Origin: a virus | DNA: 25,901 bases | IMG/VR virus record: IMGVR_UViG_3300046321_000041 | Coordinates: 1 to 25,901 of that record | Strand: one strand, 5' to 3' | In this document: positions 4,742-22,603 of the stretch, piece after piece | Numbering within the stretch: the first letter of the stretch is position 1 | How the letters are laid out: each line of letters begins with the position of its first letter | Notes under the pieces: model-generated | Told to the model about the DNA's origin: nothing | What the model saw: the letters and a program-made list of their open reading frames with translations, nothing else | Database searches by the model: none | Program-made: the position numbers and the translations under genes

Positions 4742-5035
4742 ATGCAATGCAAAGACATCCCTGATCTGCCAATACTAGAGTTTTTGGCAAAGAGCTTGGG
4801 CGTGTGGCATAACTGGTCAGAAGGTCACGAGCGAGATGTTGGGCACTTCATGCCAGCAGAAACGCCTAGAAAGCTGGTGCTTGCCAAGATGCGTGGCTTG
4901 ATGCGGCGTGGGTTGGTAGATGGCTGCGGTTGCGGGTGTCGCGGTGACTTTGAAATTACCCCAGTAGGGTTAGACCACATGAGACAATTTCGGCATCATC
5001 CAAAGGATGACCGACAAACCCACCAAGAAGACTAA
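4742..5035 (+). CDS. Hypothetical phage protein with Cys-rich CGCGC segment
   Basis: A 97-residue protein. It starts like many small phage proteins (DIPDLPILEFL), has a predicted helical core (PRKLVLAKMRGLMRRGLV), then DGCGCGCRGDFEIT with Cys62, Cys64 and Cys66. The layout (helix, recognition-like helix, Cys loop, beta hairpin with DFEITPVGL) looks like a small winged-helix unit, a familiar kind of conserved phage hypothetical found just before terminase genes. There is no Shine-Dalgarno sequence before ATG 4742. Its 3' end overlaps the small-terminase start by 29 bases and carries the two-block DNA element, so the same bases serve coding and probably regulation. Confidence 0.7.
   Translation: MQCKDIPDLPILEFLAKSLGVWHNWSEGHERDVGHFMPAETPRKLVLAKMRGLMRRGLVDGCGCGCRGDFEITPVGLDHMRQFRHHPKDDRQTHQED
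4959..4999 (+). promoter_or_regulatory. Two-block element, copy 1 (before small terminase)
   Basis: CCCCAGTAGGGTT (4959-4971), then 20 bases, then GGCATCAT (4992-4999). The ATG of the small terminase follows 7 bases later. The same arrangement is found at 16442 and 21426. The first block is a dyad, ACCC-N5-GGGT. CATCAT could act as a -10 hexamer, which would put the dyad near -42 and transcription start at about the ATG. It lies within the coding sequence of the preceding gene. Confidence 0.6.
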
Positions 5036-5681
5036 GACTATCCCAACCAAAGGGAAAGCTGCGCCAGTAAAGATCCGTACAGATTGGGAAGCTGTAGAGC
5101 GTGATTACCGAACAGCTAAGTTCACCCTAATAGAATTAGCGGCAAAGTATGCTTGTACACATCAGGCAATTGGCAATCAAATCAAGCGCCACAAGTGGAC
5201 GCAAGACCTTTCCATTGCTATCAAGCAAGCAACTGACGCGAAGCTTGTCAACGATTTAGTTGCCAAAGAAGTTGCCAAAGGTGGACAAGAAGTTGCCAAC
5301 ACGGTTTTAATGGCCGCTGAAATCAATACGCAGGTTATCTTAGGTCACAGAACTGGCCTCAAGCGCATCACAAAAATTCAGCAGAAGCTACTCGACCAGA
5401 TAGAGCAAGCAGCATCGAATCTGCCCGAATTGGAGGAAGTGATCGAGATGATCCGCAACCCAGACGAGAACGGCACAGACAAAGCCAACGACCAAATGCG
5501 CAAGGCCATGAGTCGCAGCTCTTTGGTTGATGACCTCAAGAAGCTATCCGAGATTGACGAGAAGGTTCGTAAGGGTGAACGTGAGGCTTTCAATCTCAAT
5601 GCAGAGCAAACTCCCGACAGCGAAATCACATCATTGCTCAAGTCACTGGGTTCACGTTCAGCGTTTCAAGTAGTCAAATGA
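5007..5681 (+). CDS. terS: Terminase small subunit (probable)
   Basis: A 224-residue protein immediately before the large terminase, overlapping it by 4 bases. Residues about 26-64 form a helix-turn-helix (DWEAVERDYRTAKFTLIELA, then AKYACTHQAIGNQIKRHKW), the DNA-recognition part of many small terminases. The middle (about 85-150) is a long helical region fit for oligomerisation, and an acidic/basic tail follows that probably contacts the large subunit. The first 24 residues are Lys/Thr/Pro-rich and probably disordered. ATG 5007 is the only ATG before residue 100. The AAAGG before it touches the start codon and is too close to act as a normal Shine-Dalgarno site. The family call rests on position plus fold. 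Confidence 0.82.
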   Translation: MTDKPTKKTKTIPTKGKAAPVKIRTDWEAVERDYRTAKFTLIELAAKYACTHQAIGNQIKRHKWTQDLSIAIKQATDAKLVNDLVAKEVAKGGQEVANTVLMAAEINTQVILGHRTGLKRITKIQQKLLDQIEQAASNLPELEEVIEMIRNPDENGTDKANDQMRKAMSRSSLVDDLKKLSEIDEKVRKGEREAFNLNAEQTPDSEITSLLKSLGSRSAFQVVK

Positions 5682-7240
5682 TTGAGTTGGACTTCAAGCC
5701 CACAACCAAGGCCGAGCTTGCCGCTTGCCTAGCTGACCCTATGTGGCGGGTTTGCAGTGGGTATTTGTACAAGATTATGGTCAAGAGCCATGATTCGGAC
5801 GAGGGATCAGTTGTTCCATTCGTCCCGAACAAGTCGCAGCGCAAATTACTGGGTAAACTTTGGCACCGAAATGTAATCCTGAAAGCCCGTCAATTAGGCT
5901 TCACGACCATGGTGGCGATTCTTTGGCTTGACCATGCGCTGTTTAACGCCGACCAGCGTTGCGGCATCATCGCCCAGGACAGAGAAGCTGCAGAAGCTAT
6001 TTTCCGAGACAAAGTGAAGTTGGCTTATGACCGTCTGCCCGATGAACTAAAAGCCGCCATGCCACTTGGCCGTGATAGCGCTAGCGAGCTGCTATTCGCC
6101 CATAACAACAGTTCGATCCGTGTGGCTACCAGCATGCGCTCAGGAACTATCCACCGGCTCCACGTCTCAGAGTTCGGCAAGATTTGCGCGAAGTTTCCTG
6201 ATAAAGCCAATGAAGTTGTGACTGGCTCACTGCCTGCAGTTCCTTTGGATGGCATCACCATCATTGAAAGCACAGCCGAAGGGCAAGAGGGTGAGTTCTA
6301 CAAGATGACGCAGCGCGCGCAAGCCCAGCAAGAGCAGGCAAAAGACCTGACTGCCCGCGACTACCGATTCCACTTCTTCCCTTGGCACCAAGAGGATAGC
6401 TATCAGATCACCGATGGCGAGGTTGTTGTCACCGACAAAGACAATGAGTATTTCGATCAAATCGAGGTTGAAGCCGGCGTAACGCTATCACTTGGCCAGC
6501 GTCAATGGTATGTGGCTACCCGTGATGCCGACTTTTCGGGTGACCCTGAGAAGATGTGGCAAGAGTATCCGAGCACGCCTAAAGAGGCGTTTCAGGTATC
6601 GACTGAGGGCAACTACTACAGCAAAGATATGACAGCCGTACGCAAGCGTGGCGGAATTTGTCGCGTTCCTGTGCTGGATTCGCCAGTTAACACGTTTTGG
6701 GATATTGGCAACTCGGATGGTTGTGCAGTTTGGTTTCATCAGCAGTTGGCTGGCGAGGATCGTTTCATTGGGTACTACGAAGCTCACAATGAAACATTGA
6801 TGCACTACGTCAAGGCGTTGACCGATACCGGTTACCTATTCAACAAGCATTTTTTACCGCACGATGCCGCACACAAACGCCTGAGTGACACCAACAACTC
6901 TACCGAGCAAATGTTGCAGGCGCTTGGATTGCGCAATACGGTCATTGTTCCAGTCATCACTGACCTAAACACAGGCATTCAAATGGTGCGAAAACATATC
7001 AAAGGTGCGTACTTTGATGAAGTGATGACCAAGGACGGCGTGAACCGGCTGGACAACTACAAGAAGCGGTACAGCACCAAAGACAACCGCTACATAGACG
7101 AACCAAACAAAACAAACGGATGCAGCGAGGGCGCGGACGCTTTCAGGCAGTTTGCCCAGGCTAAAGAGGCTGGAATGATTGCTTTGGCGGGATCAAGCAG
7201 CGATTACTCAGCACCCCCACCCCCAGATTGGCGAACATAG
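5678..7240 (+). CDS. terL: Terminase large subunit (packaging ATPase-nuclease)
   Basis: A 520-residue packaging motor protein that pumps and cuts concatemeric DNA at the portal. The N-terminal ATPase domain has a P-loop variant KARQLGFTT at residues 69-77, preceded by an adenine-binding-type Gln (NKSQRKLL). The strand VHVSEFGK-like segment at about 161-168 (LHVSEFGK) sits where Walker B and the catalytic Glu are expected, and IIESTAEGQEG lies at the coupling-motif place. The C-terminal RNase H-like nuclease begins at FWDIGNSDG (about residue 340) with LPHDAAH near 393 and a further acidic segment near the end (SEGADAFRQ). Length fits the family. The start overlaps terS (ATGA), suggesting coupled translation. 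Confidence 0.94.
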   Translation: MIELDFKPTTKAELAACLADPMWRVCSGYLYKIMVKSHDSDEGSVVPFVPNKSQRKLLGKLWHRNVILKARQLGFTTMVAILWLDHALFNADQRCGIIAQDREAAEAIFRDKVKLAYDRLPDELKAAMPLGRDSASELLFAHNNSSIRVATSMRSGTIHRLHVSEFGKICAKFPDKANEVVTGSLPAVPLDGITIIESTAEGQEGEFYKMTQRAQAQQEQAKDLTARDYRFHFFPWHQEDSYQITDGEVVVTDKDNEYFDQIEVEAGVTLSLGQRQWYVATRDADFSGDPEKMWQEYPSTPKEAFQVSTEGNYYSKDMTAVRKRGGICRVPVLDSPVNTFWDIGNSDGCAVWFHQQLAGEDRFIGYYEAHNETLMHYVKALTDTGYLFNKHFLPHDAAHKRLSDTNNSTEQMLQALGLRNTVIVPVITDLNTGIQMVRKHIKGAYFDEVMTKDGVNRLDNYKKRYSTKDNRYIDEPNKTNGCSEGADAFRQFAQAKEAGMIALAGSSSDYSAPPPPDWRT

Positions 7241-7248
7241 GATTACCC

Positions 7249-9450
7249 ATGACAGAAAAAGATTCAAAAGGTGGAAAACTCGACCTCAAGACGTTCACGA
7301 AATGGCTGTTTGAGATTGACAACCAACCCGCTTGGCGCGCAAAGGCCGACAAAGAAATGGATTATGTTGATGGTAATCAGCTTAACAGCGAGATTTTGCA
7401 AAAACAGAAAGCCATCGGTATGCCGCCCGCGCTGGAGCCATTGATTGGCCCCGCGATTGAATCTGTACTCGGTTTGGAGGCTAAGACCCGCACGGATTGG
7501 CGCATTACCTCGGACAACGGCAAAGAGAACGACGATGTTGCCGCTGCCTTGAATTTCAAATTGAACCAGTCCGAGCGCAAATCAGGTGCTGACCGCGCCT
7601 GTAGTGATGCGTTCAAGCCGCAATTGTGCGTTGGCCTTGGCTGGGTTGAGGTTTCACGCGAGAGTGACCCGTTCAAATACCCACACCGGTGCAAAGCCGT
7701 TCACCGCAATGAAATCCATTGGGACTTTCTATCGGTTGAGCCTGACTTGTCGGACGCGCGCTACTTGGTTCGCAGGCGCTGGACGGAATCAGAGCAGGCT
7801 ATTTTGAAGTTCCCTGACCACAAAGACTTGATTGAGCGTTCAAATGGACGATGGGCAGATCGATTTGCATTGTCGATGGATGGCGGCGCTTCGACTGATT
7901 TAGCCCAGTCATGGGAAGATGAGCGCGGCTGGAGCATTGAAGAGCAGCAATGGCGTGATGCTGAGACGGGTCGTGTGTGTTTGTACGAGGTTTGGTATCG
8001 CCGCTGGGAGCAAGTGACCATCATCAAAACACCTGACGGGCGTATCGTTGAGGTAGATATGGACAACCCAGACCACCTTGAAATCATTGCAGCCGGCTTG
8101 GTGAAGCCAGAAAAGGCTACCGTCGCTCGCATGTATGTGTCGTATTGGATGGGGCCGCACAAGTTGCATGATGGAAAATCACCCTACAAACACACAGATT
8201 TTCCGTATGTTCCGTTTTGGGGCAAGCGCGAAGATCGCACCAACGTGCCGTATGGAAATGTACGCGGCATGATTTATTTGCAAGACAACGTGAACAGCTT
8301 GATGAGCAAACTGCGCTGGGGAATGAGTGCCGTAAGAACTACACGAACCAAAGGTGCAGTCGTTTACTCTGACGAGATTTTTAGGCAGCAAAGCGCACGG
8401 ATTGATGCTGATATTATTTTAGATCAACAGCACATGGCGCAATCGGGCGCGGTATTCAAGGTTGAAAGAGACTTTGAATTGAACAATCAGCAATTTCAAA
8501 TGCTGACAGATTCTCGTGATGGAATCAATAGGGCTGCAGGTATCACACCTGGGTTTCAAGGTCAAAAAGGTACAGCAACATCAGGCTTGCAAGAGTCCAC
8601 TCAAATCGAGCAGGCGACACAAAGCCTAGCTGACTTGATGGATAACTTCCGCTTTGGCCGTACCAAAGTGGGTGAACTGCTACTTTCCATGATTGTGGAG
8701 GACATGATCGGCAAGCCTGAGCAGGTTCTGATTCGTGGTGGAGCAGTGAAGGATGACCGTGTTGTGAGGTTGAATGAGCCAACTATTGACGGAGATGGCA
8801 CCGAGTATCTAAGCAACGATGTATCACGCACGATATTGAAGGTCGCCGTCAATGATGTGCCAAGCACCTCAAGCTTCCGTTCACAGCAACTAGCCGCTAT
8901 GTCCGAAGCGTTTAAGTCTATGCCGCAAGAGTACCAAGTGATTGCATTGCCGCACCTACTGGCATTGATGGATGTTCCTGACAAAGAAGAAATCATCAAA
9001 GCTATCAAAGAGGCTAGCCAGCAGCAAACACCTGAGCAAGTGCAGCAACAGATTGACCAAGCTGTCAAAGATGCGTTACAAAAAGCAGGTAATGACCTCA
9101 AGATGCGGGAGTTGGACTTGAAGTACAGCCCAGACCGCATGATGGCCGAGATTCAAAAGCTAGTGTCTGAGACTGTCAAGAACAATGTGGGTTCGTCATT
9201 TGCTGCCATGCAAGCAGGCGAAAAGATTGCCATGGTTCCGCAAATCGCACCAATAGCAGATATTGTGATGCAGCAATCTGGCTGGAGAGAACCAACACCC
9301 GGCGGTGAAGATCCAAACTTCCCGCAACCCCAAATTGCACCACCGCAACCCACGGAAACAAATGGTGATACATCACCACTTACACCCATGAACCCTGTGA
9401 GTGCGTTTGAAGGTGAGCAGCAGGGCATGGACACACTACGCGCTGACTAA
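7249..9450 (+). CDS. Portal protein, P22-like family
   Basis: A 733-residue protein matching P22-type portals (P22 gp1 is 725). Twelve copies form the DNA gate at one capsid vertex. Recognisable parts: N-terminal YVDGNQL, GPAIESVLGLEAKTRTDWRI, the wing region rich in Trp, and the stem/crown part with GINRAAGITPGFQGQKGT, then SGLQESTQIEQATQSLADLM and FGRTKVGELLLSMI. A Gln-rich coiled-coil-like stretch (about 590-650) and a Pro/Gln-rich tail that is probably flexible close the protein. I use ATG 7249 with TAGGA upstream; a TTG at 7228 would overlap terL. The gene directly follows terL, as in most phages. Confidence 0.93.
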   Translation: MTEKDSKGGKLDLKTFTKWLFEIDNQPAWRAKADKEMDYVDGNQLNSEILQKQKAIGMPPALEPLIGPAIESVLGLEAKTRTDWRITSDNGKENDDVAAALNFKLNQSERKSGADRACSDAFKPQLCVGLGWVEVSRESDPFKYPHRCKAVHRNEIHWDFLSVEPDLSDARYLVRRRWTESEQAILKFPDHKDLIERSNGRWADRFALSMDGGASTDLAQSWEDERGWSIEEQQWRDAETGRVCLYEVWYRRWEQVTIIKTPDGRIVEVDMDNPDHLEIIAAGLVKPEKATVARMYVSYWMGPHKLHDGKSPYKHTDFPYVPFWGKREDRTNVPYGNVRGMIYLQDNVNSLMSKLRWGMSAVRTTRTKGAVVYSDEIFRQQSARIDADIILDQQHMAQSGAVFKVERDFELNNQQFQMLTDSRDGINRAAGITPGFQGQKGTATSGLQESTQIEQATQSLADLMDNFRFGRTKVGELLLSMIVEDMIGKPEQVLIRGGAVKDDRVVRLNEPTIDGDGTEYLSNDVSRTILKVAVNDVPSTSSFRSQQLAAMSEAFKSMPQEYQVIALPHLLALMDVPDKEEIIKAIKEASQQQTPEQVQQQIDQAVKDALQKAGNDLKMRELDLKYSPDRMMAEIQKLVSETVKNNVGSSFAAMQAGEKIAMVPQIAPIADIVMQQSGWREPTPGGEDPNFPQPQIAPPQPTETNGDTSPLTPMNPVSAFEGEQQGMDTLRAD

Positions 9451-9453
9451 TAA

Positions 9454-9494
9454 CCCCACTAGGGTTTGTAAAAACTTGCATTGATTGAAATACT
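9454..9494 (+). promoter_or_regulatory. Two-block element, degenerate copy (portal/scaffold gap)
   Basis: CCCCACTAGGGTT (9454-9466) is identical to the first block at 16442 and 21426, but the expected second block is replaced by GAAATACT (9487-9494). AATACT in the -10 slot matches the -10 consensus at 4/6. No gene starts within the next 90 bases. The 145-base gap 9451-9595 contains no gene. Confidence 0.45.
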
Positions 9495-9528
9495 CGCACC
9501 GTGCTCTGAAAAGAGTGCAGGCGAGTAT
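9490..9528 (+). other. Long imperfect hairpin with GAAA loop
   Basis: Bases 9490-9507 pair with 9512-9528 around a GAAA loop (9508-9511). The outer stem ATACTCGC/GCGAGTAT is perfect over 8 pairs. The inner part has seven pairs next to the loop including two G-T pairs, with one mismatch and one bulged A between. No T-run follows, so it is not a classic terminator. It may be an RNA-processing site, an mRNA 5' stabilising structure for the scaffold/capsid transcript, or a binding site. Confidence 0.6.
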
Positions 9529-9595
9529 GTGATTTAGGTCGCATTCTCATTACACCTTTAAGCGGCCACGGCGATATGTGGCAAGGGAAATGTGA

Positions 9596-10528
9596 ATGAA
9601 TCAAGAAGAGTTTTTCAAAAGCAATCAAGTTGATGGTCAGTTGACCGACGAACAGATGGCGCAGATGTTGAATCTGCCAGAGGGCGATACCGCTTCGGCG
9701 GAAGGTGGCGTGCCCGACGCTGCAGCTGCAGTCGAAACACCAGAAGCCGTTGCGGAAGCTAAGGTTGAAGCAGTCGTAGAGCCGGTTATTTTAGCAAAAG
9801 ATGGTATCCACACGATCCCATTTTCAAAGCTGGAAGAAGCAAGGCAAGCAGAGCAGCACTGGAAATCAGTTGCGGCGGAACAGCAAAGACAAATTGATGC
9901 TCTTGGCCAAAAGTCAGTTGCAGAAGTAGTCGAGCCATCCGCCGAGACAAATATCCTTGATACGGATATGTTCGGTGACTACTCTGAGGAAGCGCTCGCA
10001 AAGGGCATGAATAAGTTGGTAGACGTGAAGGTTGCTGCAATAAAGCAGGAGCTGGAAGCTAAATTTAACGCAGTTTTGGAGCCAATTCAAAAACAGCGTG
10101 AAGTCAGCGCCACGGATGACCATTTTGAAACCATTGCCAAGGCGCATCCCGATTATGAGTCTATTGGACAGAGCCAAGAGCTTACTCAGTGGATTTCCAA
10201 GCAACCTAGTTTTGCCAGAAGTGGTTACGAAAAAGTAATCGCAGAAGGTACTGCAAAAGAGGCCATTGAGCTATTCGACGCCTTCAAAGCAGCCACAGGA
10301 AAAACCACTGTCGTAGCTGGTCGCCCAGATACCGCAGCACTCGCTAAGGCAGCTATTGCAAATGTCAAGTCAAAGCCACCGTCTAGCTTGTCGGAAATTC
10401 CGGCAGGTTCAGGCGTACAGCATGACGAAGCGGCCGCAATGCTGGAAATGTCAGCAGTTGGGGTGATGAATAAGTTTGATGGAAAGACTCCTGAACAGAT
10501 CAACGCCCTGCTAAGTCGAATTATTTAA
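9596..10528 (+). CDS. Scaffolding-like protein (head assembly)
   Basis: A 310-residue acidic protein between portal and major capsid genes, the classic scaffold position. The N-terminus is short and polar (NQEEFFKSNQVDGQL). Residues about 25-65 are Ala/Glu/Val-rich and low-complexity. The middle shows extended helices (FSKLEEARQAEQHWKSVAAE; VDVKVAAIKQELEAKFNAVL) and a segment HFETIAKAHPDYESIGQSQE that I recognise from other phage scaffold-type proteins. The C-terminus has EQINALLSRII. Scaffolds guide coat assembly and are later removed. No protease motif is seen. ATG 9596 has AAGGGAA upstream at good spacing. Function comes from position and composition. Confidence 0.75.
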   Translation: MNQEEFFKSNQVDGQLTDEQMAQMLNLPEGDTASAEGGVPDAAAAVETPEAVAEAKVEAVVEPVILAKDGIHTIPFSKLEEARQAEQHWKSVAAEQQRQIDALGQKSVAEVVEPSAETNILDTDMFGDYSEEALAKGMNKLVDVKVAAIKQELEAKFNAVLEPIQKQREVSATDDHFETIAKAHPDYESIGQSQELTQWISKQPSFARSGYEKVIAEGTAKEAIELFDAFKAATGKTTVVAGRPDTAALAKAAIANVKSKPPSSLSEIPAGSGVQHDEAAAMLEMSAVGVMNKFDGKTPEQINALLSRII

Positions 10529-10547
10529 CGCTTAAAGGAGCATTCAA

Positions 10548-11825
10548 ATGCCAAGTACCAATATTCCCTACGGTTCGCCACAAGCGAACACCTTACAATC
10601 GGCGGGTCTGTTTGCTGCAAACATGCAGCGTAACACGACCATGAACCGTTTGACAGGCAAAATGCCTCAACAGGCAGATGCTGAAAACAACCTGCGCAAG
10701 CAATCACCCAACGAAATGCCGATTGTTCGTTGCATGGACTTGCAAAAGATGGCGGGCGATGAAATTACCTTCGATTTAATCAACCCAATGGGCGGTAAAC
10801 CCATCATGGGTGGCGATGTGGCCGAAGGTCGTGGTCAAAAGATGTCTTTCAGCCAGGATAAGTTGCGCATCAACCAGTCGCGCTTCCCAATTTCCGCTGG
10901 CGACACGATGACGCAGCAACGATCACCACACCAAATGCGTAAATTAGGTCGCGCCATGGGTGAGAGCTTGATGAATCGTTTGGCTGATCAGTCCATTTTG
11001 ACGCACTTGGCCGGCTCTCGCGGCTTCCACAACAACATTGAATGGGTTGTGCCGTTGGCTTCTGATGTTGACTTTGCAAACGTGATGATTAACCCAGTCA
11101 AAGCGCCTACAAAGAACCGTCACTTTTTGTCTACTGGTTCAGGCATTGAAACTGTCAAAGCTGCTGGCAATGAAATCTCTATTGCCACGACTGACGTGCT
11201 CAATGGCGATACGGTTGACGGCATCCGCACTTTCATTGATTCGATGGCATTGCCACCGCCACCAGTTATTTTTGAAGGCGACAAGATGGCCAGTGATGCA
11301 CCTTTGCGTGTATTGTTGGTGTCCAGTGAGCAATACGCTGGCTTTTTGCAAACATCTGGCTTCCGCACCTTGCAAGCAAACGCCATGGCGCGTGCTCAAA
11401 ATGCGGCCATGAACCCAATCTTCATGGGTGAAGCTGGTTTGTGGAACGGCATCTTGATTGTCAAAATGCCTAAGCCTATCCGCTTCTATGCGGGTGACAG
11501 CTTGCGCTGGTGCCAAAGCTATACGTCAGAAGTTGAAACTGCTACCGATTTGGTTCCAGCTTCATTTGGTACTGGTTTTGCTGTTGACCGTGCGATTCTG
11601 TTGGGCGGTCAAGCACTCGCAGAAGCATGGGGCAAGCATGCAAAGTCTGGAAATCCGTTTTTCTGGTCTGAGAAGGAAATGGATCACGATGACAAGCTCG
11701 AATTGTTGGTTGGCGCAATCAATGGCCGCAGCAAGATTCGTTTTGAAGTTGACCATGGCGACGCCAAGCAGTTCACTGACTATGGCGTGATGTGTATCGA
11801 CACAGCGGTCAAGCTGCAGTCATAA
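10548..11825 (+). CDS. Major capsid protein, N4-gp56 (DUF4043) family
   Basis: A 425-residue coat protein. The family signature is clear: NEMPIVRCMDLQKMAGDEIT, then GRGQKMSFSQDKLRINQSR, then MTQQRSPHQMRKLGRAMGES and LADQSILTHLAGSRG. The latter half includes SEQYAGFLQTSGFRTLQANA and LLGGQALAEAWGKH. These belong to an HK97-like fold; the first 60 residues are polar and may be the arm. Start ATG has AAAGGAG seven to eight bases upstream, one of the best ribosome-binding sites here, as expected for the most abundant virion protein. A stem-loop follows the gene. Confidence 0.93.
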   Translation: MPSTNIPYGSPQANTLQSAGLFAANMQRNTTMNRLTGKMPQQADAENNLRKQSPNEMPIVRCMDLQKMAGDEITFDLINPMGGKPIMGGDVAEGRGQKMSFSQDKLRINQSRFPISAGDTMTQQRSPHQMRKLGRAMGESLMNRLADQSILTHLAGSRGFHNNIEWVVPLASDVDFANVMINPVKAPTKNRHFLSTGSGIETVKAAGNEISIATTDVLNGDTVDGIRTFIDSMALPPPPVIFEGDKMASDAPLRVLLVSSEQYAGFLQTSGFRTLQANAMARAQNAAMNPIFMGEAGLWNGILIVKMPKPIRFYAGDSLRWCQSYTSEVETATDLVPASFGTGFAVDRAILLGGQALAEAWGKHAKSGNPFFWSEKEMDHDDKLELLVGAINGRSKIRFEVDHGDAKQFTDYGVMCIDTAVKLQS

Positions 11826-11831
11826 AGTTTT

Positions 11832-11868
11832 GGGGTATCTCGTGCCATTACTTGATACCCCGCTTTTC
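11832..11868 (+). terminator. Stem-loop after the major capsid gene
   Basis: GGGGTATC (11832-11839) and GATACCCC (11854-11861) pair perfectly over 8 bases around a 14-base loop and are followed by GCTTTTCT. The T-run is only four bases, so this is a weak or partial terminator, or a 3' stabiliser of the abundant capsid message. Confidence 0.5.
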
Positions 11869-11895
11869 TAAACCCTCATATAACTGGAGTCCACC

Positions 11896-12375
11896 ATGGC
11901 TACTATTCAAAAGAAAAAAATCGCTTCCGATCAGCAATTCGGCGGCACACCATACGGTAATTCAACTACTTTGCCGTTTAACTTGACCACTAATGCGGTC
12001 GGCGCTGCTGTCAATTCAGACACAGCTACTGGTATCGCATTGGGTGACAAGGTGCGCATTGGTATCTTGCCAGCTGGCGCAATTCTCAATGATTCCTCAA
12101 TTGTTGTTTCTGATGCTTTTACGGCATTGGTGACTGCAAATGTGGGTTTTGAGTATGTTGACGGCGTTGATGTTGCGGCCGTACCACAAAGCGCAACGTA
12201 CTTTGGTTCTGCTGTGACCCTGCACACTGTTGGTCGTTATCGCAATGCGACCACCAATGCCCCGGTAAAGCTGCCAAAAGATGCGTATTTGATTCTGACA
12301 ACTGCTGGCGCGGCCAATGCTGCTGTTGGTATTGCTGATGTTTTGATTGAGACGGTTCTCAACGGCGCACCTTAA
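11896..12375 (+). CDS. Small head (decoration-like) protein
   Basis: A 159-residue, Ala/Val/Thr-rich, mostly beta protein directly after the major capsid gene, where head decoration or stabilising proteins are usually encoded. The N-terminus (ATIQKKKIASDQQFGGTPYG) is polar, then LGDKVRIGILPAGAILNDSS reads like a beta-sandwich edge common in phage head proteins. No catalytic motif is visible. CTGGAG lies before the start. The neighbouring hairpins on both sides suggest that its expression is set apart from that of the coat and connector genes. The role is inferred from position and composition. Confidence 0.65.
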   Translation: MATIQKKKIASDQQFGGTPYGNSTTLPFNLTTNAVGAAVNSDTATGIALGDKVRIGILPAGAILNDSSIVVSDAFTALVTANVGFEYVDGVDVAAVPQSATYFGSAVTLHTVGRYRNATTNAPVKLPKDAYLILTTAGAANAAVGIADVLIETVLNGAP

Positions 12376-12382
12376 ACCATAA

Positions 12383-12413
12383 GAATGAAGCCGCTTTTTG
12401 AGTGGCTTCATTC
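12383..12413 (+). terminator. 12-bp stem-loop between decoration and connector genes
   Basis: GAATGAAGCCGC (12383-12394) pairs with GTGGCTTCATTC (12402-12413) across a 7-base loop, TTTTTGA; one pair is G-T. No T-run follows, and the stem ends two bases before the CAGGAG ribosome-binding site of the next gene. It could weaken transcription, protect the upstream mRNA end, or affect initiation at 12431. Confidence 0.45.
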
Positions 12414-12430
12414 ACTCAGGAGATTTACCA

Positions 12431-14248: not shown

Positions 14249-14256
14249 GAGTTGAC

Positions 14257-14769: not shown

Positions 14770-14771
14770 GC

Positions 14772-15206: not shown

Positions 15207-16105
15207 CTTATGTAACAGGCACGCTATCCAATGCGGCACCAGCATCTACATTTTTAAGCATCATTGATGCGACCATCACGGCTGAAACAGGATTAACTAA
15301 GGTTTCAAGCGCCATTGTTGTCGGTACAAATACTTGGAACGTTTACAAAAGCGCGGCGGCTAACAATTCGTTCGGCCAAGACTTCCATTTTGCCATTGGT
15401 TACCCGACTGCAACACCGACGACCCTGTTGATGGCTGTGTTCGAGGGCTGGAACACTGGTACGCTACTGGCCACGAACTACCCACCTAATGCAACAGTCA
15501 CGCCAAACGGCAGCTTTGCAAACCCTGGCGCGGCGCTGGCACTGCCATCTACGGGTGCGATTATGGGTTATCTGCAGTCAATTGTTCTGACGACAAGCTG
15601 CTCGTATTATTACTCGGTAACACCAGATCGGGTTATTTTCTCGATCCTTACCAGCGCGCCTACGAATATCGGGTTTTACATTGGGCTGTACGACAGCTTC
15701 AATACAACCGCCATTGACCCATTCCCATTGTGCGTTATAAACCTCGGGATAGCGAATATCACATTAGCTAATGCATTACCTAATGCCTCAGCCGGATTCA
15801 CAACACGAGAGCTTGGTACTCCTGCTAGTAACGCTAATAATTTTTGTGTTTTTGCTGCCGGGGGGATTACTTGTGCATGGACAAGGGTTGAATCGACCGC
15901 AGATTACTATAAAGGGTTTAACTACCTGTCACGGGTTCTTGTTACCGGAAAAACAGTATCTTACCGAGGTCTTTTAAAAGACGTGTACTTAGGCCCACCA
16001 CAAACCCAGAATGGCGATACGGTGACATGGACGATAGCTGGCTCACCTAAAACTGCTGTGCGCGCTCATGTTTATACTCTAGGGATCTACTTCCTGACCA
16101 TCTAA
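15203..16105 (+). CDS. Hypothetical virion protein (300 residues)
   Basis: A 300-residue protein, rich in Ala, Thr, Ser and aromatic residues and with almost no charge, typical of phage structural proteins. It has strands such as AIVVGTNTWNVYKSAAANNS and FGQDFHFAIGYPTATPTTLL; aromatic clusters include CSYYYSVTPDRVIFSI and NIGFYIGLYDSF. I recognise no enzyme motif. Similar proteins are found in phage tail/fibre clusters with a repeated pattern of a capsid-surface part and a C-terminal decoration part. The start overlaps the previous gene by 4 bases; the next begins one base after its stop. Confidence 0.6.
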   Translation: MTYVTGTLSNAAPASTFLSIIDATITAETGLTKVSSAIVVGTNTWNVYKSAAANNSFGQDFHFAIGYPTATPTTLLMAVFEGWNTGTLLATNYPPNATVTPNGSFANPGAALALPSTGAIMGYLQSIVLTTSCSYYYSVTPDRVIFSILTSAPTNIGFYIGLYDSFNTTAIDPFPLCVINLGIANITLANALPNASAGFTTRELGTPASNANNFCVFAAGGITCAWTRVESTADYYKGFNYLSRVLVTGKTVSYRGLLKDVYLGPPQTQNGDTVTWTIAGSPKTAVRAHVYTLGIYFLTI

Positions 16106-16441
16106 ATGGCAACCCTAGCAGCCTACCCAGTCACCAACAGCGGCGATGAGACGACGCCGGCTGAACTGTGGGCGGCTGCTTCGCCAACGACTCTCCGTAC
16201 CCTAGATGCCTTCATTAAAAACAAGTACGCATCACCAGTGACCGCACAAGGCGATGACATTAACCCCGCTGAGTTGTGGTCAGTCGCCTTGCCCACAACC
16301 GTCCATATCGCCAATTTCAACAGAAGCATTCGTGCGCAAGATTCTGTCTTTGACCCGATGGCAGGATACGTATTTGTGTTGAGTCCCGCAACATTGCAAC
16401 CGCAAGTGCCACGAAGTACGCAGTTCCCCTACGCCCAATAA
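16106..16441 (+). CDS. Small virion protein with internal 36-residue duplication
   Basis: A 111-residue protein whose ATG directly follows the preceding stop (TAAATG). Residues 8-29 and 44-65 are a repeat with 36-residue spacing: PVTxxGD, then PAELWxxAxPTT; 14 of 22 positions are identical. The C-terminal 40 residues contain a Pro/Gln-rich tail (LQPQVPRSTQFPYAQ). There is no Shine-Dalgarno sequence, so translation is probably coupled to the gene before. The repeat could make a short modular rod or bind two copies of a partner. Function unknown. Confidence 0.6.
   Translation: MATLAAYPVTNSGDETTPAELWAAASPTTLRTLDAFIKNKYASPVTAQGDDINPAELWSVALPTTVHIANFNRSIRAQDSVFDPMAGYVFVLSPATLQPQVPRSTQFPYAQ
16127..16300 (+). 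repeat. Two-copy protein-level repeat, 108-base period
   Basis: Codons for residues 8-29 and 44-65 of the 16106-16441 product repeat with a period of 36 residues. Conserved positions are PVT, GD, PAELW and PTT. The DNA of the two units has diverged, so the duplication is not recent. Confidence 0.65.
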
Positions 16442-16482
16442 CCCCACTAGGGTTCGCATTTCCCACTTGAAATAGGCATCAT
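16442..16482 (+). promoter_or_regulatory. Two-block element, copy 2
   Basis: CCCCACTAGGGTT (16442-16454), 20 bases, then GGCATCAT (16475-16482), with ATG 16489 following after 6 bases. The gap between the genes is 47 bases and is almost entirely this element. No useful Shine-Dalgarno sequence is present; AAGG touches the ATG. Confidence 0.62.
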
Positions 16483-16488
16483 CCAAGG

Positions 16489-16974
16489 ATGACGACGATC
16501 ATCCTACAGTCCGAAGAAGTGCTTGTTATCGAGCAAGAAATCGGCGCGTCTGTAGTTGAAACTGAAGTTAATCATGTCATCGTCGTTGAAGAAAGCGAAA
16601 TCAACGGCGTTATAGAGACTGAGGTTGAGACGCTACTGGTGGTTGAAAGCACCGAGGCTGCAATACTGATTGAAGTCGAGACTGAAACCGTCATTGTTGT
16701 TGAAGACACGGAAGTAATTGTGTTGGAAGCTGCAGAGCAAGGGTCGCCCGGCCCGCCTGGAATCGCCATTCACCCCATTGACAAAACCTTTCTAAGAAAC
16801 CCTGACGGCACGCTTTCCCGCGTCAATTACTCGGATGGCACTTACAAAACTTTTCAATGGACTGCTGGGTTGTTGACTTCTACGGTGCTGTATGAGGCGA
16901 CCCGCACGATTCAAACTACATTTAACTACGACATGACTGGCTTGTTGCTTGGCTCGGATGAGGTGCTACTGTGA
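16489..16974 (+). CDS. Repeat-rich virion protein with Val/Glu 19-residue repeats and collagen-like motif
   Basis: A 161-residue protein. Residues 11-67 are three consecutive 19-residue repeats and 68-84 a partial fourth. Each begins with a hydrophobic strand (VLVIE, VIVVE, LLVVE, VIVVE) and continues with an acidic stretch (for example ETEVET). The pattern suggests an acidic beta-solenoid or stacked beta-hairpin rod. It is followed by GSPGPPG (85-91), a collagen-like junction, then a C-terminal domain (about 95-161) with FLRNPDGTLSRVNYSDGTYK and a TWTAGLL-like Trp strand, as in phage fibre proteins. The protein has the organisation of a fibre: rod, joint, head. A leaderless start is suspected. 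It ends with a GTGA overlap with the 848-residue protein. Confidence 0.65.
   Translation: MTTIILQSEEVLVIEQEIGASVVETEVNHVIVVEESEINGVIETEVETLLVVESTEAAILIEVETETVIVVEDTEVIVLEAAEQGSPGPPGIAIHPIDKTFLRNPDGTLSRVNYSDGTYKTFQWTAGLLTSTVLYEATRTIQTTFNYDMTGLLLGSDEVLL
16519..16740 (+). repeat. 57-base coding repeat (19 residues), 3 full and 1 partial unit
   Basis: Units begin at 16519, 16576, 16633 and 16690, each coding a V/L-V/I-V/I-V/E start followed by Glu/Thr-rich residues. The repeat unit is a multiple of three bases, so changes in unit number would keep the frame and could vary rod length. Confidence 0.7.
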
Positions 16975-19517
16975 CAGCCTACACCTTATCAGCCAACACA
17001 AATATCGACGCACTCACGGCGAAGGCTGGCGGCGATACTTATGCAACCAATGGGTTTACGCTAACGATTGACCAAGACTCTCGCACGGGTCTAAACCAAA
17101 CCACTAGCACGTCCCTTGGGTCAATGACTGTCACTCCCACATTAGGGGGCAACACAAATATAGATGCAACTGCAATATGGATGATCCCATACACAGGCGG
17201 TAGCGGTAACGTGCCAGCGTGGAACACTGTAGTTTCTCGCGGTACTGGCACAGGTAAGCTCATAGGTGTACACGCTTCACTGACGGCGGCATCTACCGCT
17301 ACAGGCGCAGCAATGCCTGCTACTGGCTTTATTCGCGTTAAGCAAAAATCAGGCGCTTATACCGCTGGCGCTTTGACTGGTATCACAGCTACAGCCTCAG
17401 ACGCAGGACGTATTGGTTGGCTTGAGATTGTGGGTGATGAGGCTGGCACAATCAATGCAAACCGTTTAGGCGCTGTAAACATCACAGGTGCATGGTACGC
17501 AGTAGGTACAACCTCTGGCGTATCAAATCAGACAATGCAAATCCCGAATAACGGATTGCTTAGATATGCGGCTGGTGTTTATATTGAGAAAACAGCGGGG
17601 TTGCAAGACTTCGAGTTTTACCCAAATGCGGGAACTGTGACCACAATCGGAACAGACGCAACACGCGGTAAAGTTTGCTGGATTGACGCTAACGGACTGG
17701 TGCGGCTTGGTAACTCAGGCGCAGCAACCAATGGCTACACGCCAGTGGCAGGGCTTGCGGTTGTCATTGGCAATGTGTTTTTAGAAAATTGCACCACAGC
17801 GGCACGGACTGCGAATGTGATTCCGAACGCGACCATTGCCACGCGGTACGACTTCACAACCACGGGCGGCGGTGTAGTGGTCATGGATAAAGTTAATTGT
17901 GCATGGTACGGCTCATTCTCTCAAGCGTACTCAGTCACCGTGACAAATACAGGTTTTGTGGATGCTGTACTCTTCAATGAGATTGCAACACCCATGACAA
18001 ACAGCAAAATCGGCGTTGGCAACAAACCAACGACAGCTTTGCTTGTATCACCTTTAACGCTTACTTTGTCATTTGCTGGTGGAACTTTTACAGATTGCGT
18101 ATGGGGCAGGGTTTCACATGCTGCATCGGGCGCGTACACCAATACTGTGACTGATATTGCAAACTTTGAATTTATTGATGATACGGCGCGGGCTAACACG
18201 ATCCGAGCCAATGCAACAACTGGCTCATGGATCGCTACTAGGGCGGTGAATTGCAAGTGGACGCGACCTAAGCTAATTCAGGGAAAGATGTCGTTTTTGC
18301 AATGCGTTGGTTACGAGGTAATTGACCCCGTATATGTAGATTGTGTGAGTGGTACGACTGTTACGACATACGCTATGTACGTGACCGAATCATCGGCATC
18401 ATGTTTGAATGGTAAGTTAAAAGGGTTGTCATTGCCCGTGACAAATTGCCAGCCATATACAGCTTTGCACTCTATCGCGGCGGCGGGTTGTGCAAAGATA
18501 AAAATCAGGAATATTGCTAGTCGATCAGCGCCTTTGAATTTAGGTAGCGTGAACATTACTGGCTTGATTTATGTTTTGGCGAACGCTGGTGCGGCGGCAG
18601 ATATTGACGTTCAAGACATTTGGACAACCCCGCCTAGAATTGGCATTATGACTGGTGACAATTCAAGCACTAGGATTAGAGAAAAAAACGTATCAGGTCA
18701 ATATGCGATTGCTACTGATTTTATGTCGTGTCTAAATATGACTCGTCAGGGTATGGGTGGTACAGGCGTTTTGACTGCACAAACCGCCATCTATGGCACT
18801 CACTGGCGCGACGGCTTCACCAGCACCACGGCGGGGCGAATCGCCATATTGATGAACGAGCCTTCAAGCCTCACGACTTCGCAGGTAACGCTATCAAACG
18901 GCGCGGCGTTCACGTCAGCGGGTGGTCTGTACATGCCGGTTATCGGTCATCAGGCAGTCTTTGAAATGCCTGAGTACACCATTGGTCACACAGCGTTTGC
19001 AAATGCTGTAGGCGTGATGGCAGGCGCCACGATTGGTAATTACTTAATCGAGTTTTCAATTGATAAAAATGACGGTAGCGGATTCTCTGCCTACCAAACA
19101 GCCACGGGTGTAAATTTATCGGGCGTGACTGGCATCAATGCGCAGTTAGGCTTTAAGTTGCGCGTGCGGGTTACAACTTCGACAACAAACGCGACTGCGA
19201 TCACTTCGCTTTATTTCACGACAGTGAGCACTACGACAGCGCAGGATTATTTGTATCCGTTGGATGTGGCTACCGTTGAAATTGGCGGCTTGGTCACAGA
19301 TTCTCGCGTCGTTGCAAAAAAGGTATCTGACGGTACTGTTTTATTCAATGGAGTGGAAGTGGCCGGCTCGGTGTTGTTCACTACTGACTTCATCGGCGCG
19401 GTACGCATCATTGCCCGTAAAGCAAGCGCGGCACCGTATTACATCGAGTGGGAAACCCAAATCACAACAATTGCAGGCTCAATGGTGAGCGCAATAGCAC
19501 TTCAACAATCAGAATAG
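16971..19517 (+). CDS. Large beta-rich virion protein (848 residues), tail or fibre component
   Basis: The largest gene in the window. The product is Thr/Ala/Gly/Val-rich and consists almost entirely of short strands and turns (for example IDALTAKAGGDTYATNGFTL; LGAVNITGAWYAVGTTSGVS), a composition typical of beta-helical fibre or tailspike proteins. The middle has a run of Asn/Val strands (VDAVLFNEIATPMTNSKIGV) like a parallel beta-helix. The C-terminal 150 residues have an Ig-like pattern (YLIEFSIDKNDGSGFSAYQT; TTTAQDYLYPLDVATVEIGG; YYIEWETQITTIAGS). No enzymatic residue set can be pointed to. The GTG start has GAGG upstream and overlaps the preceding stop. The role as a tail-associated fibre or spike is inferred from composition, size and location. 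Confidence 0.65.
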   Translation: MTAYTLSANTNIDALTAKAGGDTYATNGFTLTIDQDSRTGLNQTTSTSLGSMTVTPTLGGNTNIDATAIWMIPYTGGSGNVPAWNTVVSRGTGTGKLIGVHASLTAASTATGAAMPATGFIRVKQKSGAYTAGALTGITATASDAGRIGWLEIVGDEAGTINANRLGAVNITGAWYAVGTTSGVSNQTMQIPNNGLLRYAAGVYIEKTAGLQDFEFYPNAGTVTTIGTDATRGKVCWIDANGLVRLGNSGAATNGYTPVAGLAVVIGNVFLENCTTAARTANVIPNATIATRYDFTTTGGGVVVMDKVNCAWYGSFSQAYSVTVTNTGFVDAVLFNEIATPMTNSKIGVGNKPTTALLVSPLTLTLSFAGGTFTDCVWGRVSHAASGAYTNTVTDIANFEFIDDTARANTIRANATTGSWIATRAVNCKWTRPKLIQGKMSFLQCVGYEVIDPVYVDCVSGTTVTTYAMYVTESSASCLNGKLKGLSLPVTNCQPYTALHSIAAAGCAKIKIRNIASRSAPLNLGSVNITGLIYVLANAGAAADIDVQDIWTTPPRIGIMTGDNSSTRIREKNVSGQYAIATDFMSCLNMTRQGMGGTGVLTAQTAIYGTHWRDGFTSTTAGRIAILMNEPSSLTTSQVTLSNGAAFTSAGGLYMPVIGHQAVFEMPEYTIGHTAFANAVGVMAGATIGNYLIEFSIDKNDGSGFSAYQTATGVNLSGVTGINAQLGFKLRVRVTTSTTNATAITSLYFTTVSTTTAQDYLYPLDVATVEIGGLVTDSRVVAKKVSDGTVLFNGVEVAGSVLFTTDFIGAVRIIARKASAAPYYIEWETQITTIAGSMVSAIALQQSE

Positions 19518-19526
19518 GAGCTAATT

Positions 19527-20972
19527 ATGGCAATTGCAGACGACTTCACAGTAGCGGCGGGGGGTGATATTCGCCACGTCAGCGGTACAACGGTTTATTC
19601 TGTTTTACAGCTTCACGAATGGCTGCAGGACAAAGCTGATGATGGCTCGATCTCTGTGCCAGGGGATGACATTTCCATTCTCAGTCCGAACCCGTCAAAG
19701 CTAGATGGCCCACGATCTGCCATTAAACCCATGTTGCTCAATTTGCTGGGCGCTTACAACATTGACGACTCGGCAGCTCAATACCTCAACTTTGGTTCTA
19801 TCCAGCAAGACGGCACCAATGTTTTGCGTACTGGCTTGAAATCCATTGGTTCACCGCTGGTGGCCGCTTCGCCTATGTATGTGGTGCAGGCAGGTTCCAA
19901 GCTGACGACATATTGGCCAAATGGTCATATTCAGATCATGGTCAAGGCAAAAACAGCTGGCGCATTGATTGACAACGGCGATGTGCGTGTGTTTTCTCGC
20001 AAGTACGGCCAAACCTACGGCGACTTTGCTGCCAACTTGGTAGCCGGTGGTGAACAGCCTGCAGCGGTGTCAACAGCACCTACCGACTGGACGCCTTTGA
20101 GCAAAGCGGCAGCGCTGGCACTCACAAACATCGTCATTTCCACGGGAGACACCACGCAAAACACTGGTGACGGTAGTGGCGCAAAGTTGTACAAGGGTAC
20201 GATCACCCTAAGCGGTGGGCGCACCATTGCAGAGGCGGCACAGTATTGCCAAGCGATTTGCGATGAATCCAGTGCGGTCACGGTTGACGGCGTATTAGGC
20301 TGGAAATTCCGTAGTTTGGGCGATGGTGCCAACGGCTACACGCCAAACGGTGCAGCACCATTCGGCACGGTGGCGGGTGGTAAGTGGTTCGTAGCTCAAG
20401 GTTGGTACATTGCTGGCGCATTGGCTGGTGATTTGCAAAAGTATCAGATGGTAAGTCATGATGGCACGACGGTGACAAACCCTGTGGTAGCGGGTATTGC
20501 CATTGGAGGATTGACAGTGGGTTCTCGCGTGTTGGTGGGGCGTAGTGCTGGTACAGCCTCTGGATTCTTAGACACTGAGTACACATTAAATGGCGCAACC
20601 ACATCAGGCGGCAATACGTGCGTGATCAATGAAGTGGTCAAGGTGGACACGCCAGCTACTGGATTTATCCGTGTGAATGGCATCCCTTACGCCTATACCG
20701 CAGTCAATACGGGCACTAAGACATTCACCATCAGCGGCACATGGGGCCAAATTCACGCCAGCGCTTCACCAGCATGGGTGCCGTTTTTAGATAAAGTAGT
20801 TGTAAGCACAACAGAAAGCAGCGCGGCCTACACGTATGCGGCTGACTTTACAGCACGCCTTAAAGTGCGCAAAGGCACGGCTGGCTCTAGCTTGCAGCCG
20901 TTTGAGACGACATTCTTGGCTGGCTCATCATCGACCAACGGCACCAACGCGATTGCAACTGCTGACGAATAA
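19527..20972 (+). CDS. Large virion protein (481 residues)
   Basis: A 481-residue protein with TAGGAG upstream of the start. It opens with AIADDFTVAAGGDIRHVSGT and a segment SVLQLHEWLQDKADDGS, which I recognise as common to several phage structural proteins. The middle has YWPNGHIQIMVKAKTAGALI and VRVFSRKYGQTYGDFAANLV; the C-terminal half is beta-rich (TGFIRVNGIPYAYTAVNTGT; KVVVSTTESSAAYTYAADFT). The conserved features suggest a tail hub/tube-like or internal virion protein. I cannot assign a precise part. It overlaps the next gene by one base. Confidence 0.65.
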   Translation: MAIADDFTVAAGGDIRHVSGTTVYSVLQLHEWLQDKADDGSISVPGDDISILSPNPSKLDGPRSAIKPMLLNLLGAYNIDDSAAQYLNFGSIQQDGTNVLRTGLKSIGSPLVAASPMYVVQAGSKLTTYWPNGHIQIMVKAKTAGALIDNGDVRVFSRKYGQTYGDFAANLVAGGEQPAAVSTAPTDWTPLSKAAALALTNIVISTGDTTQNTGDGSGAKLYKGTITLSGGRTIAEAAQYCQAICDESSAVTVDGVLGWKFRSLGDGANGYTPNGAAPFGTVAGGKWFVAQGWYIAGALAGDLQKYQMVSHDGTTVTNPVVAGIAIGGLTVGSRVLVGRSAGTASGFLDTEYTLNGATTSGGNTCVINEVVKVDTPATGFIRVNGIPYAYTAVNTGTKTFTISGTWGQIHASASPAWVPFLDKVVVSTTESSAAYTYAADFTARLKVRKGTAGSSLQPFETTFLAGSSSTNGTNAIATADE

Positions 20973-21421
20973 TGACCATCAGCATTGACTGGCCTAACAA
21001 ACTGGTCATATCGACGGCCAGCATACCGGATGTCATCGCCTTCAAAGACACTTTGCGTGATTTTGAGGATGATGAGATCGGCATGCTCAACCCCGCCATC
21101 ATCAGCTACAAACGGCTTGATCTTGGTGGTGGCGCGTACTTTCATGGTGTTGACTTCATCAATGGCTGGCAGTTGCAATTTCCCAACGCGGGTAATTACA
21201 CGGTCATCGGAAACATCAATGCAAACATTGTCCCTGTTGGCGGTGTTTTTGTTGATCGCGTGAAGTCGGCAGCTTTTGCGACGGTGTCGGGCTCTGGCGG
21301 TGGCTCCAGCCCTGCAGACATTGCCGCAGCGGTCATCGCCGCCATGCAGCCGGAATTGTCGCGCCTTGATGTGAAAGTTTCTAGCCGTGTGACGATGGCT
21401 GAGGTTGCTGCATTGGTTTAA
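20972..21421 (+). CDS. Hypothetical virion protein with C-terminal helical tail
   Basis: A 149-residue protein starting on the last base of the preceding stop (TAATG). The first 105 residues are beta-rich (ISIDWPNKLVISTASIPDVI; LGGGAYFHGVDFINGWQLQF; YTVIGNINANIVPVGGVFVD). A Gly/Ser linker (SGSGGGSSP) leads to a helix (DIAAAVIAAMQPELSRLDVK), then SSRVTMAEVAALV. Such tails often make trimeric coiled coils at the virion surface. No direct function. Confidence 0.62.
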   Translation: MTISIDWPNKLVISTASIPDVIAFKDTLRDFEDDEIGMLNPAIISYKRLDLGGGAYFHGVDFINGWQLQFPNAGNYTVIGNINANIVPVGGVFVDRVKSAAFATVSGSGGGSSPADIAAAVIAAMQPELSRLDVKVSSRVTMAEVAALV

Positions 21422-21425
21422 TCTA

Positions 21426-21466
21426 CCCCACTAGGGTTTGAGAAAAAAGGGGGGTCTTGGCATCAT
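21426..21466 (+). promoter_or_regulatory. Two-block element, copy 3
   Basis: CCCCACTAGGGTT (21426-21438), 20 bases including an A6G6 run (21443-21454), then GGCATCAT (21459-21466). ATG 21473 follows after 6 bases. The whole 51-base gap is this element. The G-run ends 18 bases before the ATG, too far to be a Shine-Dalgarno sequence. Confidence 0.62.
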
Positions 21467-21472
21467 TGCTAC

Positions 21473-22603
21473 ATGGAAACGGTGAAGTCATTTTTCGGTT
21501 TGAATAATATTTCAAACCCGCTTCGGCTGGGTATGAAATGGCTTGCGCGTGCGGATAACGTCAATGTTTCGGACACTGGAGCTGTTCAAAAGCGAGACGG
21601 CTACACAAAAACGATTTCAGGAGCTTTCACTAGCGCATTTTCAACATTTGATTTTGCGCGGATGTACCTTGTTGAAGGTTTGACGCTAAAAGCAATGACC
21701 GGCCAGTCGGTGCTGGCGATCAAATCACTTCAAAGCTCTGCACTGATGTACTGGGCGGAAATTAACAACCAGGTGTTCTATAACAACGGAGTTGACACAG
21801 GCATTGTGCTGTCCGATAACGCGGTTATTCCGTGGTCATGGCCTATGCCCGACGCCCCGCGACTTGCCGCAGTTACTGGAAACTTACCCGCTGGACTCTA
21901 TCGCGTGCTCTGCACTCAAAGACTAGCAGACGGACGTGAGACTGGTGGAAGCGAGATTGTTGAAATAGACCTCTTGGAAGGTCAATCGCTACAAATCAGC
22001 AATATCCCTACTGGTGCAACCGTCTATATCGCTCCAGCAAACAGCACAGTTTTCCAAAGCATCGGTACGCCTTCGAGCGCTACGGTGTGGAATAGTTCGC
22101 CAGACATGCTCGGTGTCGATTTGCTGAATGGCCAACTTAGCCCACTACCACAAGGCGTTACCGTCATCCAAGCGTGGAAAGGGCGCATGTATGCAGCTCA
22201 ACACATGCCAGAAGCAGATCAAACGGTTTTATGGGTATCGCAGCCTTTGGGGTTTCATTTATTTGACCTTGATACTGATTTTGTACTGATCCAAGGCAAG
22301 GTTTTGATGCTGGCCGCACATGATGATGCGCTGATAGTTGGTACAGACAAGCGTATTTATGCGTATGACGGCAACACGATTGTGACTTTAGCTGAGTACG
22401 GCGTTGCACCGGGGCAGCACGCAAGCAAGGACGATACCCGTATTTTGTTTTGGTCAAACCGTGGGCTTTGCGCCGCACTGCCTTTCGTCAATCTCATGGA
22501 GAGCCGTTTCCTCGCAGAACCATGCGAGAGCGCGGGCGGTGCGTTGATCCAGCGCGGCAGCAGTCGGCGCTATGTTGCCGCCACAAAACAGTTGCCCACC
22601 TAA
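21473..22603 (+). CDS. Virion protein, probable beta-propeller (P22 gp10-like role)
   Basis: A 376-residue protein. The N-terminus NPLRLGMKWLARADNVNVSD, then GAVQKRDGYT, is the opening seen in many short-tailed phage proteins thought to form beta-propellers that plug the tail, similar in role to P22 gp10. Repeated patterns in the rest fit propeller blades: MYWAEINNQVFYNNGVDTGI, VIQAWKGRMYAAQHMPEADQ, VLMLAAHDDALIVGTDKRIY, TRILFWSNRGLCAALPFVNL. There is no good Shine-Dalgarno sequence. It is preceded by the two-block element. The role comes from the pattern and from the lack of long-tail genes; the protein could also be a virion enzyme scaffold. Confidence 0.65.
   Translation: METVKSFFGLNNISNPLRLGMKWLARADNVNVSDTGAVQKRDGYTKTISGAFTSAFSTFDFARMYLVEGLTLKAMTGQSVLAIKSLQSSALMYWAEINNQVFYNNGVDTGIVLSDNAVIPWSWPMPDAPRLAAVTGNLPAGLYRVLCTQRLADGRETGGSEIVEIDLLEGQSLQISNIPTGATVYIAPANSTVFQSIGTPSSATVWNSSPDMLGVDLLNGQLSPLPQGVTVIQAWKGRMYAAQHMPEADQTVLWVSQPLGFHLFDLDTDFVLIQGKVLMLAAHDDALIVGTDKRIYAYDGNTIVTLAEYGVAPGQHASKDDTRILFWSNRGLCAALPFVNLMESRFLAEPCESAGGALIQRGSSRRYVAATKQLPT

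Follow-up and report, generated by a model that had tools for sequence, protein, structure and literature searches.

In phage lambda, the cI gene is transcribed from PRM, a sigma70 promoter with weak -10 and -35 elements and an activator bound at about -42, and its mRNA starts at the AUG. To our knowledge, most leaderless mRNAs described in proteobacterial phages are isolated examples, lambda cI among them. In phage T4, the genes e, soc, 49, and I-TevI have a late promoter inside a hairpin that sequesters the ribosome binding site; read-through transcripts fold over the start site, and the late transcripts lack the 5' arm of this hairpin (PMC3014915, PMC2988022).

The stretch of DNA analyzed in this study (25.9 kb of a virus record, hereafter the window) carries the late half of a temperate podovirus of the F116 type, with NinB, RusA, the terminase subunits, the portal, a protein in the scaffold position, an N4-type capsid protein, and a head closure protein (the names NinB, RusA, and capsid were given partly by reading of the sequences). 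It shares with F116 and other Hollowayvirus phages (H66, LKA5, phiC725A) a box upstream of late genes, the spacing between -10 and ATG, a winged-helix protein, and the late gene order, but the box of these phages reads CCCCYGTARGGTTCG, and the hairpin arms and some of the terminase genes differ. Lessieviruses (Bcep22-like; DC1) have a related terminase large subunit, while no box was found in the 50 kb of DC1 that were searched.

The late promoters predicted here resemble lambda PRM in the position of the activator site near -42, the weak sigma70 elements, and the predicted start at the AUG. However, they precede a set of late genes instead of one lysogeny gene, the candidate activator, a winged-helix protein, lacks the fold of the lambda repressor, and a hairpin covers the -10. 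T4 late messages keep a Shine-Dalgarno sequence and use T4's own late sigma factor, whereas the late messages described here are predicted to be leaderless, and the arrangement recurs across the regulon with varied arms. The best overall explanation, which we consider highly probable in view of the sequence comparisons below, is that of activator-driven sigma70 late promoters that would place the AUG at +1 to +3, combined with a gating hairpin.

Promoter sites in the window and its relatives

The octamer GGCATCAT is found at 4992, 16475, and 21459, just before the ATGs at 5007, 16489, and 21473, with 7, 6, and 6 nt between the last base of the -10 and the ATG, respectively. These sites and their spacing, from which leaderless or near-leaderless starts had been predicted in a preliminary description, were confirmed in the sequence. 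The same holds for the lack of a properly spaced Shine-Dalgarno sequence: AAGG directly abuts the ATGs at 5007 and 16489, and no Shine-Dalgarno sequence was seen at 21473. The octamer is enriched in the window (seven exact copies versus 1.45 expected) but unspecific on its own, because copies also exist within genes on the + strand (5963, 14482, and 18395) and on the - strand (24332). An imperfect dyad, ACCCCA(C/G)TAGGGTT, lies at 4958, 16441, and 21425, exactly 34 bases upstream of each start-site octamer, and the intragenic copies have no such box. The distance from the start of the box to the ATG (the offset) is 49, 48, and 48, respectively. A fourth and only other copy of the dyad in the window is located at 9453, with GAAATACT in place of GGCATCAT 34 bases further on; all copies are on the + strand. 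We describe as F116-like late promoters those sites that combine a box ACCCCNSTARGGTTYG with a -10 of the form xAxxxT at offset 36-41 on the + strand before late genes, as all four window sites do (Table 1). The preliminary description had read GGCATCAT both as a -10 and as an operator-like box: it does cover the -10 region, but the regulatory box common to these sites is the dyad that starts 34 bases earlier.

At the leadered scaffold-gene promoter, a strong nested hairpin (ACTCGC...GCGAGT, TGCTCT-GAAA-AGAGTGCA; 9489-9530) surrounds the predicted +1, and the start of the leader (CAAGCC...) looks conserved at the corresponding sites in relatives. No match to Rfam was found in the window.

Table 1. 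Coordinates of the promoter elements, hairpins, and genes in the window.
Feature	Position	Strand	Basis
Winged-helix protein, phrog_8117 / F116p37 family, candidate activator of the box	3843..4202	+	Co-occurrence, predicted structure
Putative activator box, dyad ACCCCAGTAGGGTT, promoter of terminase small subunit	4958..4971	+	Conserved family
-10 hexamer CATCAT inside GGCATCAT	4994..4999	+	-10 position from logo of leadered sites
Hairpin TCATCC-AAA-GGATGA, ATG in 3' arm, in read-through RNA only	4996..5010	+	Sequence, folding
Terminase small subunit gene, predicted leaderless or with leader of at most 1 nt	5007..5681	+	phrog_1206, E 8e-43; conserved start
Putative activator box, promoter with long leader	9453..9466	+	Box sequence
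-10 hexamer AATACT, predicted +1 near 9501, leader of about 95 nt	9489..9494	+	Sequence
Scaffold-position gene, leadered member of the same regulon	9596..10528	+	phrog_479; gene order as in F116
Putative activator box ACCCCACTAGGGTT	16441..16454	+	Box sequence
-10 hexamer CATCAT	16477..16482	+	Motif, leadered-site logo
Hairpin TCATCC-AA-GGATGA containing ATG	16479..16492	+	Sequence, folding
161-aa gene, function not assigned, predicted leaderless	16489..16974	+	ORF, promoter logo
Putative activator box ACCCCACTAGGGTT	21425..21438	+	Box sequence
-10 hexamer CATCAT	21461..21466	+	Motif, leadered-site logo
Head closure Hc3 gene, predicted leaderless	21473..22603	+	phrog_8040, E 1.4e-27

Eighty relatives were collected via the large terminase. 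With up to two mismatches, the box occurs 49 times in the forward and four times in the reverse orientation (six and five times for reversed-pattern controls), and a weight matrix at score 12 returned 94 sites on the + versus four on the - strand, with the family consensus (A/C)CCCCNSTARGGTTYG. Scanning DNA for the box as it reads in the window returned 27 stretches, of which several are probably chance matches. On these comparisons, the putative promoter family is conserved across F116-like phages. In some relatives, this box with its -10 was also observed directly before apparent tRNA genes (L069:706, L102:7124, L075:8051).

The transcription start was predicted from the 66 sites outside the terminase small subunit (TerS), and thus without using start codons, as nearly all of these sites have their starts far downstream; the set includes a few intragenic chance sites (score 14-17), which merely dilute the signal. 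An A is found at offset 37 in 53/66, a T at offset 41 in 45/66, and a C at offset 47 in 45/66 of these sites, and an A is preferred at offset 39. By this pattern, offsets 36-41 are the putative -10 hexamer, strongest at the usual A2 and T6, while offsets 13-17 correspond to a -35-like TYGAC with a 17-bp spacer, and a C is preferred before the presumed initiator. The -10 otherwise varies among relatives (AACACT, AATCAT, CATAGT, etc.), with only A2 and T6 being well conserved. The conservation of A37, T41, and C47 at the non-TerS sites places the predicted +1 at offset 48-49. Since the center of the dyad is at about offset 6, a +1 at offset 48 would put it at about -42, overlapping the -35, which by geometry alone corresponds to a class II activated sigma70 promoter.

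Start codons at the predicted +1

In about 40 terminase loci, an open reading frame of TerS length starts with an ATG at offset 48, 49, or 50 and thus coincides with the predicted +1. A scan of IMG/VR for the box, followed by A...T, 6-8 nt, and an ATG, returned 97 stretches, compared with three for a control in which the spacing was shifted to 14-16 nt. The base before the ATG is a C in 56 of the 79 distinct sites; as in the other site counts, related phages are included, and these are not independent. A Shine-Dalgarno sequence of at least 4 nt at proper spacing was found at two of the 79 sites versus 150 of 487 control ORFs, which were drawn from the same contigs and some of which are spurious. 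The predicted leaderless genes, including those of the window, thus nearly all lack a functional Shine-Dalgarno sequence. They comprise TerS, holin-like, head closure, giant virion protein, and tail genes; apart from TerS and head closure, these assignments were made by N-terminal sequence and size. The homologues of the head closure gene at 21473 in L141, L195, and L020 are predicted to be leaderless too. The gene set of the preliminary description thus holds for its three window genes but turned out to be wider, namely a late regulon across the family.

A marine gammaproteobacterial clade (L057, L061, L062, L110, Shewanella phage Y11 and, at other late genes, Pseudoalteromonas Y7) has retained the box, but its start codons lie 22-29 nt after the predicted +1 and are preceded by GGAG-type Shine-Dalgarno sequences. 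In this clade, a Shine-Dalgarno sequence appears where the ATG is not at the predicted +1. The 49 bases before the ATG (-49 to -1) contain only two variable positions among eleven Hollowayvirus phages. In eight of these eleven (L120-L127: Epa33, D14I, CF24a, H66, Baskent_P6, PA8, CF63a, and LKA5), the F116 TerS promoter and about 25 first codons are kept, and the TerS and TerL genes downstream are unrelated, a pattern that indicates recombination just behind the predicted leaderless start. Several deposited gene starts differ from this position. The deposited TerS start lies 75 nt downstream of the leaderless ATG in F116 (L114:22776-22851) and 204 nt downstream in LKA5 (L127:957-1161), and the deposited TerS and holin starts of Acidovorax phage AP1 (L274:12634-12690) lie 18 and 9 nt upstream of it.

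Leaderless starts, either true or with a leader of 1-2 nt (the two being indistinguishable here), are very likely in our opinion. The earlier prediction is supported by the transcription start derived from leadered sites, the position of the ATG in dozens of phages, the contrast with the Shine-Dalgarno-led clade, and the outcome of a prediction made for phage AP1 (see below). A search of the open-access literature found neither this promoter nor leaderless late genes described for F116-like phages, and their novelty is provisional.

Hairpins around the -10 and alternative explanations

At the leaderless sites, an inverted repeat surrounds the -10, with its end at or within the ATG. Folding of the region -25 to +6 gave a mean z of -2.5 for leaderless sites (n = 38) versus -0.2 for the remaining sites of this promoter (n = 67). 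The longest stem formed by a leaderless site's own arms has a mean length of 5.0, compared with 3.75 +/- 0.12 for permuted arms (about 10 sd), and of 4.67 compared with 3.59 +/- 0.13 if one site is taken per distinct 3' arm. Leadered sites perform no better than permuted ones (3.35 versus 3.21 +/- 0.12). Arm sequences vary from site to site, and in L157, L186, L194, and L198 they do so inside a single phage, a variation that speaks against one operator protein. Mismatches inside the stems are of the GU type in 15 cases and of the AC type in three (80 and 116 in shuffled arms), and this excess of GU is what a structure formed by the sense RNA, rather than by the DNA, would produce. Because the late promoter is predicted to start at the ATG, the 5' arm would be present only in read-through RNA. 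Prediction and covariation thus point to an organization of the T4 type, with the start codon paired in read-through RNA and the promoter inside the structure, and the hairpin may thus gate translation. In the window, this signal is weaker than in relatives: the folding energies are -6.2, -4.8, and -4.8 kcal/mol, and the hairpins are short at 5007 and 16489 (TCATCC..GGATGA) and weak at 21473. A second possible hairpin, GGATGA-CGACGA-TCATCC (16487-16504), lies just within the 16489 gene and offers an alternative partner for the ATG arm.

Alternatively, the hairpin could be a processing site, with leaderless messages arising from read-through RNA by RNase cleavage immediately upstream of the AUG. 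The GU pattern, which marks the hairpin as an RNA feature, would fit such a role, as would the 51 stems of at least five pairs that end within 4 nt of the ATG. We nonetheless regard processing as unlikely, given that the promoter already puts the +1 at the ATG and that 32 stems run into the ATG instead of ending before it; a consensus for cleavage was not identified either.

It is also conceivable that the genes have ordinary leaders from an unseen promoter and are translated by coupling, with the box and -10 serving another purpose. About 12 other starts in the window also lack a Shine-Dalgarno sequence and are mostly coupled to the stop of the preceding gene, so that a missing Shine-Dalgarno sequence by itself is weak evidence. 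TerS at 5007 overlaps the end of the ORF at 4742-5035 by 29 nt, which makes reinitiation possible there, but the genes at 16489 and 21473 overlap no upstream gene. Dozens of phages that differ in their upstream genes also keep the ATG 6-8 nt after the -10, and we regard coupling as a very improbable explanation. The ORF in question encodes 97 aa (phrog_5135) and spans the TerS promoter and first codons.

We attach slightly less probability still to a phage single-subunit RNA polymerase using the box as its promoter (T7-like, or an N4-virion-like hairpin), with transcripts that would begin at the GGG within the box and have leaders of about 40 nt. The sequence TAATAACCCCACTAGGG near 9448 does resemble a T7 promoter, the box can form a 5-bp hairpin with a 5-nt loop, and an N4-like polymerase domain has been suggested in the giant virion protein of phiC725A (PMC5217972). 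However, the box variants TAGCGTT and TAGAGTT break the stem, the ATGs are placed relative to the -10 and not by a Shine-Dalgarno sequence, and the conserved A...T with sigma70 spacing, 34-41 bases downstream of the box, has no role for such a polymerase; a T7-like promoter is complete without a downstream -10, whereas here a sigma70-like -10 follows at fixed spacing. Finally, the three identical copies of GGCATCAT at equal distance from three starts could suggest an operator for one regulator, the least probable reading, which we rejected as relatives keep only A2 and T6 and the intragenic copies come without a box.

Candidate activator and proposed mechanism

Only one gene family upstream of the terminase tracks the box, namely that of window gene 3843-4202 (F116p37; phrog_8117), which is listed as having unknown function. 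This winged-helix gene is present in 21 of the 23 loci with a box score of at least 14 and at least 5 kb of upstream sequence, and one of the two exceptions (L088) has a false box. It was also found in eight loci with a divergent box but the same architecture, and it is absent from loci without this architecture. The tally amounts to 26/28 architecture loci with at least 5 kb upstream versus 0/~15 loci without the architecture, a co-occurrence that partly reflects shared ancestry, as the box-less loci are more distant terminase relatives. No activator homologue was detected in L039 and L065, which do have the architecture. Linkage to TerS is not the reason for the co-occurrence, because in 8P the gene is located about 11 kb from TerS and the boxes are still present. 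The other genes preceding TerS (w3109, w3582, w4199, w4480, and w4742) were rejected as activator candidates, each being represented by homologues in few, if any, of the other loci with a box.

The predicted structure of the family (pLDDT 91) combines a winged helix with subsequent strands and a C-terminal helix of 54 residues. Among PDB structures, it is most similar to the DNA-binding domain of DtxR (E 0.003; 61 columns at 1.4 A), and family members match the AbiEi_4, TrmB, ArsR, and MarR models, while Pfam gave no credible match for the window's own wHTH protein. Acidovorax phage AP1, found through the winged-helix protein alone (36% identity), has four boxes, one each at the genes for TerS, head closure, a tail protein, and the holin, all with the ATG at offset 49, in agreement with the advance prediction. 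Based on co-occurrence and the modeled structure, the winged-helix protein is likely the activator of the box, although it may instead act as a repressor or in another role.

In the mechanism we propose, the F116p37-family protein would probably bind ACCCCNSTAGGGTT as a dimer centered near -42, adjoining the weak -35 (TYGAC, 17-bp spacer), and recruit the host sigma70 RNA polymerase to the weak -10 (xAxxxT). Transcription would begin 6-8 nt past the -10 and thereby place the AUG at +1 to +3 for a subset of late genes (in the window the terminase small subunit, the 161-aa protein, and head closure), giving leaderless mRNAs that need no Shine-Dalgarno sequence, while the fourth site, at 9453, would give a leadered message. 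In read-through transcripts only, the sense-strand hairpin would close the AUG, so that each gene would be translated mainly from its own late promoter. The chances are about even, in our estimate, that the leaderless mRNAs of this late regulon serve as such a translational gate, with the AUG locked in read-through RNA and released by the gene's own activator-driven promoter.

If true, this gate would time packaging, head closure, and lysis gene by gene within one co-directional block, and a regulon with a dedicated activator, a start at the AUG, and a silencing hairpin would represent a natural system for leaderless translation late in infection. The finding would also give phrog_8117 a function, allow the gene starts of deposited genomes to be corrected, and make late promoters predictable from sequence in any F116-like phage.
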